From Streptomyces sp. WM6386 (GTDB lineage: Bacteria; Actinomycetota; Actinomycetes; Streptomycetales; Streptomycetaceae), in the NCBI RefSeq assembly GCF_000972385.1, contig NZ_JXTE01000115.1, forward strand, positions 1 to 15,062: a stretch of DNA of 15,062 nt. The letters are read 5' to 3'. Below are positions 3,830-14,289 of the stretch, in pieces. Both the position numbers and the translations under genes were made by a program. Positions within the stretch are counted from its first letter, which is position 1. Every line of letters begins with the position of its first letter. Below the pieces are notes generated by a model, which saw only the letters and a list, made by a program, of their open reading frames with translations, did not search any database and was not told the origin of the DNA.

Positions 3830-4384
3830 TCAGAACAGCGGTTCCGGAAGCACTCCCTCCAGGGCGAGCAGCTTCCGCTTGGTCTCCAGACCGCCCCCGA
3901 ACCCGCCGATGCCGCCGCCGCTCTCGACGACCCGGTGGCAGGGCACGACCACCGGCAGGGGATTGGCGCCCATCGCCGCCCCCACCGCCTGGGCCGCCCC
4001 CGGCTGGCCGACCCGTCCGGCCAGGTCGCCGTATCCCACGACGCTGCCGAACGGCACTCCGGACGCCAGCTCGCGCAGCACCTCACGGTTGAAGCCGGAG
4101 ATCAGCGACCAGTCCAGCGGTAGCTCGAAGTCCTGCCGCGCGCCCGCGAAGTACGCCTCCACCTGGCGTATCGCCTCGGCCAGCAGCGGGGAGGCGGGTG
4201 CTTCCACGGGCTCGGTGCCCAGCCGGGACGCCAGCCGGTCGAGCGCGTGGTCGCGCACCGCCTCGGTGGCGTGGAACACGACGTTGACCAGGCCCTCGCG
4301 GGTCGCGGCCAGCAGCAGCGGACCGATGCCGGTGCCCACCACGGCCCACACGACCTGCTGCTCGTACTGCCCATGGCTGTTCAT
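3830..4384 (-). CDS. ogt: Methylated-DNA--protein-cysteine S-methyltransferase
   Basis: Suicide DNA-repair protein that moves the alkyl group from O6-alkylguanine or O4-alkylthymine to its own cysteine. The 184-aa product has the active-site motif PCHRV at 148-152 with acceptor C149. The preceding helix-turn-helix and asparagine hinge (AMGANP) are in place, as is the C-terminal GGFGGGLETKRKLLALEG block. The start is ATG 4384 rather than TTG 4414, because the extra 10 codons lie inside the promoter; the mRNA is probably leaderless. One oddity is that the position of the DNA-intercalating arginine finger (AARAVG in human, E. coli Ada and mycobacterial proteins) is glutamine here (AAQAVG, Q132). 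The gene lies between the glycerophosphodiesterase and fdhA on the same strand, but its own promoter and the terminator before it make it a separate unit. Confidence 0.93.
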   Translation of the reverse strand: MNSHGQYEQQVVWAVVGTGIGPLLLAATREGLVNVVFHATEAVRDHALDRLASRLGTEPVEAPASPLLAEAIRQVEAYFAGARQDFELPLDWSLISGFNREVLRELASGVPFGSVVGYGDLAGRVGQPGAAQAVGAAMGANPLPVVVPCHRVVESGGGIGGFGGGLETKRKLLALEGVLPEPLF

Positions 4385-4391
4385 GCGACCC

Positions 4392-4414
4392 ACCGTACGG
4401 CCCGCCACTGACAA
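4392..4414 (-). promoter_or_regulatory. RecA-NDp/PafBC-type DNA-damage promoter of ogt
   Basis: On the minus strand: TTGTCAGTG (4414-4406), an 8-nt spacer, then TACGGT (4397-4392). This fits the actinobacterial RecA-independent damage promoter TTGTCRGTG-N8-TAnnnT exactly. Seven nucleotides separate the -10 from the ATG, so transcription should begin at or next to the start codon. Confidence 0.85.
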
Positions 4415-6496: not shown

Positions 6497-6519
6497 TTGT
6501 CAGTGGGGGGTCGTACGGT
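6497..6519 (+). promoter_or_regulatory. RecA-NDp/PafBC-type DNA-damage promoter of uvrB
   Basis: TTGTCAGTG (6497-6505), 8-nt spacer, TACGGT (6514-6519): the same motif and the same -10 hexamer as at ogt. The -10 ends 7 nt before ATG 6527, again predicting a leaderless transcript. It excludes the TTG at 6497 as the start codon. Confidence 0.87.
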
Positions 6520-6526
6520 GGACTCC

Positions 6527-8656
6527 ATGCGGCCCGTTTCCCAGATCGAACGCACGGTGGCGCCCTTCGAGGTCGTCAGTCCCTACCAGCCCAGCGGCGA
6601 CCAGCCGGCGGCCATCGCCGACCTGGCCAAGCGCATCGAGGCCGGTGAGAAGGACGTCGTCCTCCTCGGTGCGACCGGCACCGGCAAGTCCGCCACCACC
6701 GCGTGGATGATCGAGAAGCTCCAGCGGCCCACCCTGGTGATGGCCCCGAACAAGACCCTGGCCGCCCAGCTGGCGAACGAGTTCCGGGAGCTGCTGCCGA
6801 ACAACGCGGTCGAGTACTTCGTCTCGTACTACGACTACTACCAGCCCGAGGCCTACGTCCCGCAGTCGGACACCTACATCGAGAAGGACTCCTCGGTCAA
6901 CGAGGAGGTCGAGCGCCTGCGCCACTCCGCGACCAACTCGCTGCTCACCCGCCGTGACGTCATCGTGGTCGCCTCGGTCTCCTGCATCTACGGCCTCGGC
7001 ACCCCGCAGGAGTACGTGGACCGCATGGTCCCCCTCAGGGTCGGCGACGAGATCGACCGCGACCAGCTGCTGCGCCGCTTCGTGGACATCCAGTACACGC
7101 GCAACGACCTGGCCTTCAGCCGCGGCACCTTCCGCGTCCGCGGCGACACCATCGAGATCTTCCCGGTCTACGAGGAACTCGCCGTCCGCATCGAGATGTT
7201 CGGTGACGAGATCGAGGCCCTGTCCACCCTCCACCCGCTCACCGGCGAGATCATCAGCGACGACCGCCAGCTGTACGTCTTCCCGGCCTCCCACTACGTC
7301 GCCGGCCCCGAGCGTCTGGAGCGGGCCGCCAACGACATCGAGAAGGAGCTGGGCGAGCGCCTCACCGAGCTGGAGAAGCAGGGCAAGCTCCTGGAGGCCC
7401 AGCGTCTGCGCATGCGAACGACGTACGACCTCGAGATGCTCCGCCAGATCGGCTCCTGCTCGGGCGTCGAGAACTACTCGATGCACTTCGACGGCCGCGA
7501 GCCCGGCTCCCCGCCGAACACCCTGCTGGACTACTTCCCGGACGACTTCCTGCTCGTCATCGACGAGTCGCATGTCACGGTCCCGCAGATCGGCGCCATG
7601 TACGAGGGCGACGCGTCCCGCAAGCGCACCCTCGTCGACCACGGTTTCCGGCTGCCCTCCGCCCTCGACAACCGCCCCCTGAAGTGGGAGGAGTTCCAGG
7701 AGCGGATCGGACAGACCGTCTACCTGTCCGCGACACCGGGCAACTACGAGCTCTCCCGCGGGGACGGCGTCGTCGAGCAGATCATCCGCCCCACGGGCCT
7801 CATCGACCCGGAGGTCGTGGTCAAGCCCACCGAGGGCCAGATCGACGACCTGGTGCACGAGATTCGCAAGCGCACCGAGAAGGACGAGCGTGTCCTGGTC
7901 ACCACGCTCACCAAGAAGATGTCCGAGGACCTCACCGACTACTTCCTGGAGCTCGGCATCCAGGTCCGCTATCTGCACAGCGACGTCGACACCCTGCGCC
8001 GCGTCGAACTGCTGCGGGAGCTGCGCTCCGGCGAGTACGACGTCCTGGTCGGCATCAACCTCCTGCGCGAGGGCCTCGACCTGCCCGAGGTGTCCCTGGT
8101 GGCCATCCTCGACGCCGACAAGGAGGGCTTCCTGCGCTCCGGCACCTCCCTGATCCAGACCATCGGCCGCGCGGCGCGCAATGTCTCCGGTCAGGTCCAC
8201 ATGTACGCCGACAAGATCACCCCGGCGATGGCGAAGGCCATCGACGAGACCAACCGGCGTCGGGAGAAGCAGGTCGCGTACAACACGGCGCACGGCATCG
8301 ACCCCCAGCCGCTCCGCAAGAAGATCAACGACATCGTGGCGCAGATCGCCCGCGAGGACATCGACACCGAGCAGTTGCTCGGCTCCGGGTACCGCAAGCA
8401 GAAGGACGGCAAGGCCGCCAAGGCCCCCGTGCCCTCTCTCGGCGGCAAGGCGGCCAAGGGCGCCAAGGGCAAGGCCAAGGAGACCGTGCCCACCGACCGG
8501 CCCGCTGCCGAGCTCGCGGGGCAGATCGAGGAGATGACCGAGCGCATGCGCGCCGCCGCCGCCGACCTCCAGTTCGAGATCGCGGCCCGGCTGCGTGACG
8601 AGGTCTCCGAGATGAAGAAGGAACTGCGTCAGATGAGGGAGGCCGGCCTGGCCTGA
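6527..8656 (+). CDS. uvrB: Excinuclease ABC subunit B
   Basis: Damage-verification helicase of nucleotide excision repair, loaded by UvrA and partnering UvrC for incision. The 709-aa product is full length. Walker A GATGTGKS is at 48-55, and the beta-hairpin that threads behind the lesion is at about 101-112 ([12 protein letters not shown]). The DEAD-like motif DESH is at 346-349 and helicase motif [11 protein letters not shown] starts at 544. A C-terminal UVR domain (about 671-709) contacts UvrC. Between helicase core and UVR domain lies an Ala/Lys/Gly-rich linker (about 624-660), low in complexity. ATG 6527 is chosen because homologues begin MRPVS and the preceding codons form the promoter. 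No Shine-Dalgarno is needed for a leaderless message. It is expected to be induced by DNA damage. Confidence 0.97.
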
Positions 8657-8807: not shown

Positions 8808-9386
8808 GTGACCGTCAACATGACCAAGGGTCAGGCCATCAGTCTGCAGAAGAACGATGGCGGCAGCCTGACTTCGGTGCGCATGGGTCTCGGCTGGCAG
8901 GCGGCTCCCCGTCGCGGCCTGTTCGGCTCGCGCACCCGGGAGATCGACCTCGACGCCTCCGCTGTCCTGTTCGCGGACAAGCAGCCGGTCGACGTCGTCT
9001 TCTTCCGCCACCTGGTGAGCGACGACGGCTCGGTGCGCCACACCGGCGACAACCTCGTCGGCGGTGTCGGCCAGGGTGGCGACGACGAGGCGATCCTCGT
9101 CGACCTGGCGCGCATCCCGGTCCACATCGACCAGATCGTCTTCACCGTGAACTCCTTCACGGGCCAGACCTTCCAGGAGGTGCAGAACGCGTTCTGCCGC
9201 CTGGTCGACGAGACCAACGGCCAGGAGCTGGCCCGCTACACGCTCGCGGGCGGTGGCGCCTACACGGCCCAGATCATGGCGAAGGTGCACCGCACGGGCC
9301 CCGGCTGGACGATGACGGCCCTGGGTACTCCGGCCAACGGCCGCACCTTCCAGGACCTGATGCCCGCGATCCTGCCGCACCTGTAA
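8808..9386 (+). CDS. TerD-family calcium-binding stress protein
   Basis: A 192-aa single-domain TerD protein. The family binds Ca2+ and supports resistance to tellurite, colicins, oxidative stress and other damage; in Streptomyces it has also been tied to differentiation. The canonical acidic motifs are present: DLDAS at 47-51, HTGDNLVG at 78-85 and GDDE at 91-94. The typical RIPVHIDQIVFTVN and FQEVQNAFCRLVD strands follow. GTG 8808 is preferred to ATG 8820, since AGGGGA lies about 8 nt upstream of the GTG. A 50-bp gap separates it from the larger TerD-domain gene, so the two are probably cotranscribed from the damage-type promoter. No TerB, TerZ or TerA gene is seen, so this is a reduced Ter module. 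It is predicted to be cytoplasmic, possibly membrane-associated through partners. Confidence 0.93.
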   Translation: MTVNMTKGQAISLQKNDGGSLTSVRMGLGWQAAPRRGLFGSRTREIDLDASAVLFADKQPVDVVFFRHLVSDDGSVRHTGDNLVGGVGQGGDDEAILVDLARIPVHIDQIVFTVNSFTGQTFQEVQNAFCRLVDETNGQELARYTLAGGGAYTAQIMAKVHRTGPGWTMTALGTPANGRTFQDLMPAILPHL

Positions 9387-9436: not shown

Positions 9437-11455
9437 ATGACGGCCGAGCTGGTGCGGGGGCAGAACCACCCGCTCTCCCAGGCCCGTCTCGAGATCCGGG
9501 TCTCGGCCGGCAAGCCGATCGTGGCCGGAGCCGCGTTGAGCGACGAGCACGGCAAGATCCACGGCGTGGAGTGGGTGGCCCATCCGGGCGCACCCACCCT
9601 GCCGGGCCTGGAGGTCTCCCGGCAGGCAGCCGCCGACCACCGTCTCGCGGTGGACCTCGGCGCCATGCCGGAGGCGGTGCACCGGATCAGTGTGCTGCTC
9701 GCCCTGCCCACGGGAGTGGCGGGCCCGGTCCGCTTCGGCGGTCTGGCCGCCCCCTTCGTCGCGGTCACCGGCCTGGACGGCAGCGAGGTCGCCAGCTACA
9801 CCATCACCGGCCTGGAGGCCGAGTCCGCCGTCGTCGCCCTGGAGCTCTACCGCCGTCAGGGCGCCTGGAAGGTGCGCGCCGTCGGCCAGGGGTATGCCGG
9901 CGGCCTCGCCGAACTTCTGGCGGACCAGGGCATGCCGGAGGCCCACACGCTCGCCGGCAGCATCAACGAGGCCGTGGCCCAGGGCCTGGCCCGCTCCGTA
10001 CCGGCCCCGCCGCGCACCGCCGACAGCGACCGCACCCGGCAGACGGCCACACCGGCACTCGGCCCGGACCAGGGCGGTACGGCACCTCAGGGCGCCGAAC
10101 CACCGCAGCCGCCGACGTCGCCCTACGGCGCCCAGACGTCCGGCCAGCCCACGTCTCCCTACGGCGCACAGGGCGCCCAGCAGGGCTCCACGGGCCCCTC
10201 CGCGGCCACCCAGCCGTCCGCGCCCGCCGCGGGAGGCCCGGTCGACTACAGCCACCCGCGCCGGCAGACCACGGCACCGCCGCCGCCCCCGCCGACCGCG
10301 CCCCCGGCCCAGCCCGGACAGCCGCAGCAGCCCGTCGCGGGCGACGCGACCGGCTGGTCCATGGACGAGCGGCTCTACAACCAGGTGTGGGGCATGTTCG
10401 AGGATCTGGCCCGCTCCATGGCCGCGTACCGCAGTGCCGTCGACTTCGCCGAGTCGCGCATGGAGAAGGAGCTCGACCAGGTCCTTTCCGACCCGCGCAG
10501 CCGGATCGGGGGCCAGGGCGACGCCGCGCGCGAGGCGGCCCGCGCCAAGCACGCCCAGCTCGTCGACCAGGCCCAGGCGGCCCTCGACCGGGACCTCTCG
10601 CAGCTCGCCGCCGAGGCCGATGTCGTGGAACCCGCACTGCCGCCGGCGTACGCCCGCTGGGACAACCCCGTCTGGCACGGCTACCGGGTGCCGATGGAGA
10701 TCCCCATGGCCCTGCGCCTGGGCGACCTCCACCTTCCCGAGGCCCCGCAGGTGAGCATCCCGATGCTGGTCAGGCTCCCGCTGGAGCGTGGGCTGTGGGT
10801 CGACAGCGGGCGGGCCGGCACGATCGACGGCTCGTACACCGACTCCCACGAAGTGAAGCGTCTGGCCATGGACACCGCGGTGGCGGTCGCGGCCCGGCTG
10901 CTCGCCGTCTATCCCGCGCGCGAGTTCACCGTGCACGTCATCGACCCGGCGGGCTCGGGCGGACAGGCGCTGGTGCCGCTGGTGCAGAGCGGCGTGCTCG
11001 CGGCCCCGCCCGCCGTCGGCGCGGCGGGTGTGACGGACGTTCTGGCCCGGCTCACCCAGCGGGTCGACCTGGTGCAGATGGCGGTGCGCGGCGGTGCGCC
11101 CGACGCGCTCCCGCCCGGCTTCGACACCGCCGAGCAGCTCCTGATCGTCAACGACTTCCCGCACGGCTTCGACGACCGCGCCGTGACCCAGCTGCGGTAC
11201 CTCGCCGACGAGGGCCCGGCGGTCGGTGTCCACCTGATGATGGTCGCGGACCGCGAGGAGGCCTCCGGGTACGGCCCGTTGCTCGACCCGCTGTGGCGTT
11301 CGCTGATGCGACTCACCCCGGTTCCCGACGACCATCTCGCCGACCCGTGGGTGGGGCATGCCTGGACGTACGAGCCCTCGCTCGTGCCGGCGGGCAGCCA
11401 GGTGCTCCAGCAGGTGCTCCAGCAGGTGGCGACGGCTCGCACCAAGCACACGTAA
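9437..11455 (+). CDS. TerD-domain protein fused to a degenerate FtsK/HerA-like domain
   Basis: A 672-aa multidomain protein. Residues 1-185 are a TerD domain, clearest at its end (ELYRRQGAWKVRAVGQGYAGGLA), but the DxD and GDN calcium motifs of its small neighbour are missing. Residues about 190-303 are a Pro/Ala/Gln-rich disordered linker with two PTSPYGAQ copies and an oligoproline run. A helical, possibly coiled-coil segment follows to about 400. From about 405 the chain resembles an FtsK/HerA-type ATPase core. There, where Walker A should be, it reads VDSGRAGTIDGSY (455-467) with no GKS/T. Walker B is LLIVNDF (569-574) instead of hhhhDEF; a typical GVHLMMVAD strand follows. It is therefore probably a pseudo-ATPase scaffold; the fold assignment is inference. 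AGGGGGA lies 7 nt before ATG 9437. It is the second gene after the TerD protein. Confidence 0.85.
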   Translation: MTAELVRGQNHPLSQARLEIRVSAGKPIVAGAALSDEHGKIHGVEWVAHPGAPTLPGLEVSRQAAADHRLAVDLGAMPEAVHRISVLLALPTGVAGPVRFGGLAAPFVAVTGLDGSEVASYTITGLEAESAVVALELYRRQGAWKVRAVGQGYAGGLAELLADQGMPEAHTLAGSINEAVAQGLARSVPAPPRTADSDRTRQTATPALGPDQGGTAPQGAEPPQPPTSPYGAQTSGQPTSPYGAQGAQQGSTGPSAATQPSAPAAGGPVDYSHPRRQTTAPPPPPPTAPPAQPGQPQQPVAGDATGWSMDERLYNQVWGMFEDLARSMAAYRSAVDFAESRMEKELDQVLSDPRSRIGGQGDAAREAARAKHAQLVDQAQAALDRDLSQLAAEADVVEPALPPAYARWDNPVWHGYRVPMEIPMALRLGDLHLPEAPQVSIPMLVRLPLERGLWVDSGRAGTIDGSYTDSHEVKRLAMDTAVAVAARLLAVYPAREFTVHVIDPAGSGGQALVPLVQSGVLAAPPAVGAAGVTDVLARLTQRVDLVQMAVRGGAPDALPPGFDTAEQLLIVNDFPHGFDDRAVTQLRYLADEGPAVGVHLMMVADREEASGYGPLLDPLWRSLMRLTPVPDDHLADPWVGHAWTYEPSLVPAGSQVLQQVLQQVATARTKHT

Positions 11456-11474: not shown

Positions 11475-11527
11475 TTGACCTTCCTTTTGCCAATCGCTTT
11501 ACCTTTCCTTGGTGATTGGGGTACCGT
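11475..11527 (+). promoter_or_regulatory. Candidate terC promoter region
   Basis: An AT-richer patch with two overlapping options. One is TTGACC (11475-11480) with a -10 near 11499-11505. The other is TTTACC (11498-11503), 18-bp spacer, TACCGT (11522-11527). The second would start RNA at about 11534, right before the riboswitch P1 stem. The related strings TTGACCTTCCTTT and TTTACCTTTCCTT form an imperfect direct repeat about 25 bp apart. Confidence 0.35.
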
Positions 11528-11535
11528 TTTCCTCA

Positions 11536-11631
11536 CGGAGGGGAGTACTCCCTGTCGATGCGGCGTACCCGTCAATACGGATCGGATCCGATCCCGGGGC
11601 GTCGGCCCACCTTGGGTGGAAGAGACCTCCG
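11536..11631 (+). promoter_or_regulatory. yybP-ykoY (Mn2+) riboswitch aptamer upstream of terC
   Basis: The leader shows both conserved ends of the manganese riboswitch: GGGGAGTA (11540-11547) on the 5' side, and a CCTTGGG-type loop (11610-11616) followed by GAGACC (11622-11627) on the 3' side. P1 closes perfectly with CGGAGG (11536-11541) against CCTCCG (11626-11631). Position in front of a TerC-family gene matches the known distribution of this riboswitch, for example ykoY in Bacillus and alx in E. coli. The middle arm (about 11548-11600) was not folded in detail. Confidence 0.9.
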
Positions 11632-11676
11632 GCAGCGCGACGACGCTGGTTATTTGCCGTTACGTAATGCCGGAGG
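11626..11676 (+). promoter_or_regulatory. Expression platform: P1 strand / anti-Shine-Dalgarno switch
   Basis: CCTCCGGC (11626-11633), the 3' strand of P1, is an exact 8-nt complement of GCCGGAGG (11669-11676), which contains the terC Shine-Dalgarno GGAGG. The two pairings exclude each other. Aptamer formation with Mn2+ would free the ribosome-binding site; without ligand it would be masked. This predicts a Mn2+-induced translational ON switch. Confidence 0.7.
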
Positions 11677-11683
11677 CGCAGCA

Positions 11684-12685
11684 ATGGATGTTTCCGTGAC
11701 CCTGTGGGTCCTGACGATCGTGGGCCTCGCAGCCCTGATCGCGGTCGACTTCTTCATCGGCCGCAAGCCGCACGACGTGTCCATCAAGGAAGCCGGAATC
11801 TGGACCGTCGTCTGGATCGCCCTGGCCGGCCTCTTCGGCCTCGGCCTCCTCATCTTCGGCGGTGGCCAGGCCGGCGGAGAGTTCTTCGCGGGCTTCATCA
11901 CCGAGAAGTCGCTGAGTGTCGACAACCTCTTCGTCTTCGTCCTGATCATGGCGAAGTTCGCGGTCCCGTCGCAGTACCAGCAGCGGGTCCTGCTCGTCGG
12001 TGTCCTCATAGCCCTGGTGCTGAGGGCCATCTTCATCGCCGCGGGCGCCGCGATCCTCGCCAGCTTCGCCTGGGTGTTCTACATCTTCGGTGCCTTCCTG
12101 ATCTGGACCGCCTGGAAGCTCATCCAGGAAGCCCGGGCCGACGAGGACGAAGAGGAGTTCGAGGAGAACAAGCTGCTCAAGGCCGCCGAGCGCCGCTTCG
12201 GTGTCGCCGACCGGTACCACGGCACCAAGCTGTGGATCGAGGAGAACGGCAAGCGGGTCATGACCCCGATGCTGGTCGTCATGCTCGCGATCGGCACCAC
12301 CGATGTGCTCTTCGCCCTGGACTCGATCCCCGCGATCTTCGGCCTGACCCAGGACCCGTACATCGTGTTCACGGCCAACGCGTTCGCCCTGATGGGTCTG
12401 CGCCAGCTGTACTTCCTCATCGGCGGTCTGCTGAAGAAGCTGGTCCACCTCAGCTACGGCCTGTCGATCATCCTCGGCTTCATCGGCGTCAAGCTGGTGC
12501 TGCACGCGCTCCACGAGTCCGGGGTCCATGTCCCGGAGATCTCCATCCCGGTCTCCCTCGGCGTGATCTGCGCGGTCCTGATCGTCACCACGATCACCAG
12601 CCTCCATGCCTCCAAGAAGCAGGCGGCGGCCGAGGCGGCGCAGGCGCAGAGCGATGGCGCTCCGAAGGACAGCATCGACGTCTGA
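11684..12685 (+). CDS. TerC-family integral membrane protein, probable manganese exporter
   Basis: A 333-aa polytopic membrane protein of the TerC family. Some members (Alx, and the Bacillus YceF/YkoY pair) act in Mn2+ export or metallation of secreted enzymes; others were named for tellurite resistance. Conserved intramembrane acids are present: D22 in LIAVDFFIG, D80 in SLSVDNLFVF, and D207/D213 in TTDVLFALDSIPAIF. An acidic cytoplasmic loop (ADEDEEEFEEN, about 151-161) splits the two helix bundles and could bind cations. The C-terminal tail (about 310-333) is soluble. ATG 11684 is set by GGAGG with a 7-nt spacer; the longer in-frame ORF from 11516 is riboswitch, not protein. It follows the TerD pair by 228 bp but has its own regulated leader. 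Manganese as substrate is inferred from the riboswitch. Confidence 0.93.
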   Translation: MDVSVTLWVLTIVGLAALIAVDFFIGRKPHDVSIKEAGIWTVVWIALAGLFGLGLLIFGGGQAGGEFFAGFITEKSLSVDNLFVFVLIMAKFAVPSQYQQRVLLVGVLIALVLRAIFIAAGAAILASFAWVFYIFGAFLIWTAWKLIQEARADEDEEEFEENKLLKAAERRFGVADRYHGTKLWIEENGKRVMTPMLVVMLAIGTTDVLFALDSIPAIFGLTQDPYIVFTANAFALMGLRQLYFLIGGLLKKLVHLSYGLSIILGFIGVKLVLHALHESGVHVPEISIPVSLGVICAVLIVTTITSLHASKKQAAAEAAQAQSDGAPKDSIDV

Positions 12686-13188: not shown

Positions 13189-14289
13189 ATGATCACTCGG
13201 CTCAGGTCGCTCACCACCCAGTGGACGATCCTCGTGCCGGTGCTCGCCGTCGTCCTCCTGGCCCTCACCTGGGGGCGGGATCTGTCGGGCGTGATCGTCG
13301 CCCTGGTGACCCTGGTCCTCGCGGGCGCCGTCCTGGCCGCCGTGCACCATGCCGAAGTGGTCGCGCACCGGGTCGGCGAACCCTTCGGCTCCCTCGTTCT
13401 CGCCGTCGCCGTCACCATCATCGAAGTCGCCCTCATCGTCACCCTGATGGCCGACGGCGGTGGCAAAAGTTCGACTCTCGCCCGGGACACGGTCTTCGCG
13501 GCCGTGATGATCACCTGCAACGGCATCGTCGGCATCTGCCTCCTGGTCGCTTCGCTGCGCCACGGCATCGCCGTCTTCAACCCCGAGGGCACCGGCGCCG
13601 CCCTCGCGACCGTCGCCACCCTGGCCACTCTCAGCCTGGTCCTGCCGACGTTCACGACGAGCAAGCCGGGCCCGGAGTTCTCCGGCGTCCAGCTGACCTT
13701 CGCCGCGCTCTCCTCGCTGGTCCTGTACGGCCTGTTCGTGGCGACCCAGACCGTGCGGCACCGCGACTACTTCCTCCCGATCACCCGCCAGGGCGTGGTC
13801 GTCACCGTCGACGACCACGCCGACGCGCCGTCCTCCCGCGCCGCCCGGATCAGCCTCGGGCTGCTGGGACTGGCCCTGATCGGCGTCGTCGGCCTGGCCA
13901 AGGGTGTGTCGCCCACCATCGAGTCCGGGGTGTCCGCCGCCGGACTGCCGCATGCCGTCGTCGGCGTGATCATCGCCCTGCTGGTGCTCCTCCCCGAGAC
14001 CATCGCCGCACTGCGCTCCGCGCGCCGCGACCGCGTGCAGACCAGCCTCAACCTCGCGCTCGGCTCCGCGATGGCCAGCATCGGCCTCACCATTCCCGCC
14101 GTCGCCCTGGCCTCCATCTGGCTCGACGGCCCGCTCGTCCTGGGCCTGGGCGCCACCCACATGGTGCTGCTCGCCCTGACCGTGGTGGTCAGCTCCCTGA
14201 CGGTGGTGCCGGGCCGGGCCACCCCGCTCCAGGGCGGCGTACACCTGGTGCTGTTCGCGGCCTACCTGGAGCTGGCGATCAATCCATAG
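13189..14289 (+). CDS. chaA: ChaA-type Ca2+/H+ (cation/proton) antiporter
   Basis: A 366-aa CaCA-superfamily antiporter that exports Ca2+ (possibly Na+ or K+) from the cytoplasm in exchange for protons. About 11 hydrophobic helices form two inverted halves, each with the family alpha-repeat. The first is GEPFGSLVLAVAVTIIE at 63-79 with cation-binding E79. The second starts LLPETIAALR with E270 and continues to LGSAMASIGLTIP (291-303). The short acidic-histidine loop VDDHADAPSS separates the halves. Length agrees with E. coli ChaA (366 aa). ATG 13189 fits the family N-terminus, but I see no Shine-Dalgarno in the G+C-rich leader; the message may be leaderless. The gene is bounded by a hairpin on each side, so it is probably monocistronic. 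Confidence 0.92.
   Translation: MITRLRSLTTQWTILVPVLAVVLLALTWGRDLSGVIVALVTLVLAGAVLAAVHHAEVVAHRVGEPFGSLVLAVAVTIIEVALIVTLMADGGGKSSTLARDTVFAAVMITCNGIVGICLLVASLRHGIAVFNPEGTGAALATVATLATLSLVLPTFTTSKPGPEFSGVQLTFAALSSLVLYGLFVATQTVRHRDYFLPITRQGVVVTVDDHADAPSSRAARISLGLLGLALIGVVGLAKGVSPTIESGVSAAGLPHAVVGVIIALLVLLPETIAALRSARRDRVQTSLNLALGSAMASIGLTIPAVALASIWLDGPLVLGLGATHMVLLALTVVVSSLTVVPGRATPLQGGVHLVLFAAYLELAINP

Follow-up and report, generated by a model that had tools for sequence, protein, structure and literature searches.

Streptomyces sp. WM6386 carries a gene in which a TerD domain is fused to an FtsK-type core. The gene lies on a 15,062-nucleotide contig of the 9.2 Mb genome (NZ_JXTE01000115.1, which was analyzed whole and is referred to as the window). 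We found that the residues expected of a motor have been lost from this core across the family, and judged from these alignments the core is probably a pseudo-ATPase and the fusion a scaffold, not an enzyme. The explanation that we favor, with a probability of about one half, is that actinobacteria have a Ter complex of the TerD/TerC type for metal and stress homeostasis, in which the fusion serves as a non-catalytic adaptor subunit. Ter proteins occur widely, and how they work has long been unsettled.

Loss of Motor Residues and of the Acidic Loop

A preliminary description of the locus proposed a TerD domain joined by a long linker to an FtsK-like domain without catalytic residues, and our analysis upheld this architecture, while the interpretation given with it was supported in part. 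The N-terminal part matched PF02342 above its cut-off and has a TerD fold; TerD was the sole domain recognized in a Pfam scan of the fusion, and a scan of NCBIfam gave no match of weight. The linker (residues 168–308) is of low complexity, with 79% P/Q/T/S/G/A and 9% V/I/L/M/F/W/Y. In the structure model, the chain holds one core only, which has the FtsK-type RecA-like fold and forms its C-terminal end.

We built a profile from six diverse fusions, which matched 412 sequences (334 proteins and 78 open reading frames from loci); the rows of the resulting alignment are redundant and fall into 24 clusters at 70% identity. As had been noted for the single protein, GK[S/T] is missing at Walker A, and this held for all 406 rows with at least 250 aligned residues. 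The Walker B equivalent likewise lacks a DE pair: Asp is kept at the position of D573 in 406 of the 410 rows with at least 180 aligned residues, preceded by N, L, A, H, or M and followed by F or A. In having no Walker A motif in any row tested, and no extra domain after the core, the fusion differs from ATPases 2 and 3 of EccC/EssC and from the FtsK motor.

When gaps are counted, the Walker A equivalent is the least conserved of 14 elements (1.11 bits); its seven well-filled columns reach 1.95 bits, and alpha-5 reaches 1.92 bits. Conservation is kept in the hairpin that precedes the core (2.65–2.77 bits; conserved positions D323, R326, S333, A338, R365, A379, L390, and E393) and in the Walker B strand (2.63 bits). 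Poor conservation of the Walker A equivalent beside a conserved hairpin and Walker B strand fits selection for contacts, not hydrolysis.

The TerD domain of the fusion was also said to have lost its Ca2+ motifs. In a motif test, none of 237 fusions carried the acidic GDNxxG..DDE loop, which we take to be the Ca2+ loop of TerD, and in this the domain differs from the TerD family (PF02342; for example 3ibz, 2kxt, and SCP2 9a6r_B, itself an integrative model). The proposed pairing with an intact TerD gene was confirmed in 71 loci (69 distinct, as L040 shares its contig with L073 and L041 with L094): TerD lies directly upstream of the fusion in 23/23 Streptomyces loci, 43/43 Nocardia loci, and 5/5 others (L039–L043), and is doubled in four of the last five. 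This adjacent TerD keeps the acidic loop in 21 of the 23 Streptomyces loci, all 42 scored Nocardia loci, and all five others; the two Streptomyces loci scored without it (L022 and L028) start inside the TerD gene. The loop of the small Streptomyces TerD (9045–9089 in the window) is longer, mostly GDNLVGG[VA]GxGGDDE, compared with mostly GDNLTGEGxGDDE in the TerDs of other loci.

Kinship of the Core with EccC-like ATPases

PF01580 did not match the fusion at E up to 1. EccC-like multi-unit FtsK/SpoIIIE ATPases (L044, L045, L046, L048, L069, and L070) have a first unit that the fusion profile also recovered and that gave the strong matches. In hhalign, the fusion domain aligned with this first unit at E values of 4.3e-27 and 1.2e-25, and the first unit aligned with the active unit of the same proteins at 5.7e-8. 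Like the fusion core, the first unit is FtsK-like without GK[S/T], and it shares with it RLG and GPxxG (6/6) and D[FY]P (5/6). Unlike the fusion, these proteins have more units after the first, a later one of which bears GKS/T in five of the six, and a single-sequence search found no TerD or TerC gene adjoining them. For one of the six (L048), the alignment to TIGR03924, a model of EccC, starts with the first unit and continues beyond it. Another (L069, 6945-10244, minus strand) has GK[S/T] nowhere and is apparently a fully dead motor chain. Because the fusion domain and its nearest relatives alike lack the P-loop, the simplest reading of the sequences is that P-loop loss is older than the fusion to TerD.

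The modeled fusion also resembles the stalk and DUF pseudo-ATPase of EccC from type VII secretion (for example 8rin, 7b9s, and 6umm), in which a degenerate ATPase fold follows a helical stalk; root-mean-square deviations from the complexes were 5.5–7.3, with one of 19.1. Unlike EccC, the fusion has no transmembrane helices and no D1–D3 motor units in its chain.

Gene Neighborhood and Distribution

TerC is adjacent to the fusion on its 3' side in 23/23 Streptomyces loci, so that TerD and TerC, the pair expected of a Ter system, are encoded together in each. The order uvrB-TerD-fusion-TerC was found in all 12 longer Streptomyces loci, which come from a subset of the genomes behind the 23, and an antiporter gene was present in 6 of the 12. 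In Nocardia (L073–L115), three AIM24-like genes lie beside TerD-TerD and the fusion in 37 of the 38 loci that reach far enough upstream (L077, L084, L086, L100, and L103 end too soon), their AIM24 identity being taken from Pfam in L041 only; N. panacis (L108) is the sole informative locus without them. AIM24 genes neighboring TerD have been reported (PMC5822837). On the other side of most Nocardia loci are a GT87-type gene and a penicillin-binding-protein gene.

Matches to the fusion were found in at least 35 of 296 genomes in a sample of the class (including five distant fusions and six weaker matches, some to multi-unit ATPases) and in at least 19 of 396 in a survey of the phylum; both counts are lower bounds, as scoring was limited to the five or six top candidates of each genome. 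Going by organism name, the fusion also occurs farther away, in Actinomadura, Spirillospora, Thermomonospora, and Nocardioides. A fragment named Mycobacterium tuberculosis (P0297) falls among the Actinomadura fusions and is possibly mislabeled or from a contaminant contig. Within the genus, at least 24 of the 28 listed genomes of the class sample match, WM6386 itself included. When the first-unit profile was applied to the other four, with all candidates scored, it matched nothing. These four retain uvrB and the small TerD, and in two of them TerC comes right after TerD, a pattern that fits the fusion being an add-on to a TerD/TerC core. Going by gene content, the fusion is thus an accessory of TerD, one that genomes can lose.

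Features of the window are collected in Table 1. The fusion is 98–99% identical to other Streptomyces proteins. For the TerC/Alx-family gene, 11516 is the first listed start, and the ATG at 11684 is the likelier one. A second DNA-repair gene, for an O6-methylguanine-DNA methyltransferase (3833-4414, minus strand), lies upstream of the uvrB block.

Table 1. Features of the Window and Parts of the Fusion
Feature	Position	Strand	Basis or remark
uvrB	6497..8656	+	Pfam UvrB domains; first gene of conserved Streptomyces block
Small TerD, 192 residues, acidic loop GDNLVGGVGQGGDDE	8808..9386	+	PF02342, 143 bits
Fusion gene	9437..11455	+	Directly downstream of small TerD
TerD fold without acidic loop (residues 1–167)	9437..9937	+	
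Low-complexity linker (residues 168–308)	9938..10360	+	Composition
Antiparallel helical hairpin (residues 309–400)	10361..10636	+	Model, conservation
FtsK/EccC-type putative pseudo-ATPase core (residues 401–672)	10637..11452	+	
Walker A equivalent, no GK[S/T] (residues 457–469)	10805..10843	+	
Walker B equivalent, NDF (residues 572–574)	11150..11158	+	
TerC/Alx-family metal-homeostasis membrane protein	11516..12685	+	TIGR03718, 384.5 bits; PF03741
Na/Ca exchanger-type antiporter	13189..14289	+	PF01699; looser neighbor

Discussion

In an adaptor role, the loop-less TerD domain of the fusion would pair with the loop-bearing TerD encoded upstream, and the hairpin and dead core would provide a docking or ring-forming surface. 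The assembly would sit at a membrane partner, probably TerC in Streptomyces, and would link the sensing of Ca2+ (or another ligand) by TerD to the metal export or metalation that TerC carries out. The yceCDE genes of B. subtilis are presumably of TerD type. There, meeF lies within a yceCDE-meeF operon, and in this operon and in ter operons the TerC gene stands with others, as here; unlike here, no pseudo-ATPase fusion is described in the available part of that source (PMC10550928). The same source credits TerC proteins with Mn efflux activity and proposes that they metalate secreted or exported enzymes at the Sec translocon (PMC10550928), and a TerC-TerD interaction is reported in another (PMC5822837). 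The surface envisaged for the dead core follows a proposal for EccC5, whose DUF is a degenerate ATPase hypothesized to act through inter-protomer contacts (PMC11154593).

Several observations weigh against this explanation. The flanks fetched for the 43 Nocardia loci and the 5 other distant ones showed no TerC, which makes the TerC link lineage-specific. Of the four Streptomyces genomes that lack the fusion, two have no TerC at the locus. By hhalign, the fusion domain had no profile match to D1, D2, or D3 of EccC and no clear one to the DUF (probability 0.3, E 0.23), and its match to the active unit of the multi-unit proteins was weak (E 9.4e-4, probability 22); the comparison with EccC thus rests on fold. 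Absence of the acidic loop is the outcome of a motif test, which is distinct from a metal-binding assay.

A regulatory role, in which the dead core would insert into the rings that an active ATPase of the FtsK/EccC family forms, bring TerD with it, and poison or gate the motor, seems unlikely to us. Homology of the core to a dead first unit that, in five of the six EccC-like ATPases, is followed in the chain by a unit bearing GKS/T favors such a role, as does the presence of EccC above the curated cut-off in 10 of 12 genomes searched, where FtsK is expected too. However, the strong matches to the first-unit profile in 15 genomes were fusions only, with three further weak matches (E 9e-4 to 6e-3), in a search that missed the known fusion of G078 and is not exhaustive, and no FtsK/EccC-type gene was found among the Pfam-tested neighbors in the window; for other loci, the survey of neighbors covered a part of them.

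It is improbable that the fusion is a ligand sensor, whose TerD domain would have a nucleotide-like metabolite, not Ca2+, as its ligand and whose dead core would serve only as the oligomerization platform of a conflict or stress-signaling system. TerD domains have been suggested to recognize specialized nucleotide derivatives, and FtsK domains predicted to be inactive occur in conflict systems (PMC7159879). Against this reading, neither the fusion nor the small TerD was matched by any PADLOC model at E 0.01, and in all 12 longer Streptomyces loci uvrB and TerC belong to the same stable block. Tethering to DNA or a membrane, the other role raised in the preliminary description beside a Ter-complex scaffold, is very improbable: kinship with FtsK and the nearby uvrB of Streptomyces would suit it, but all 331 C-terminal regions tested are acidic (net charge -23 to -4) and the fusion has no transmembrane segment (highest KD19 mean 1.44), which counts against DNA tethering and membrane insertion, the modeled chain ends with the core, and the fetched Nocardia flanks showed no uvrB.

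A bolder form of the adaptor explanation, which we regard as quite unlikely, is that actinobacteria took the dead unit of a secretion motor of EccC type and attached it to a TerD protein, where it became a cytosolic collar, possibly a ring, recruiting Ca2+-loaded TerD to a membrane transporter such as TerC, in effect a motor-free "secretion collar" for metal homeostasis.

Taken singly, TerD, TerC, AIM24, and the dead domains of EccC are already known. Their combination here, TerD and a dead EccC-type core in one TerD-paired subunit, was not described in the literature searched, in so far as those sources were available; the main 2012 survey of Ter systems lies outside that search. A conserved subunit that has neither the TerD loop nor a motor site, and that is paired with a loop-bearing TerD, is a concrete handle on a physical Ter complex. 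The fusion indicates which part of such a complex may be the scaffold, points to a testable TerD-adaptor-TerC assembly, and would place a dead FtsK/EccC unit in use outside a motor chain.
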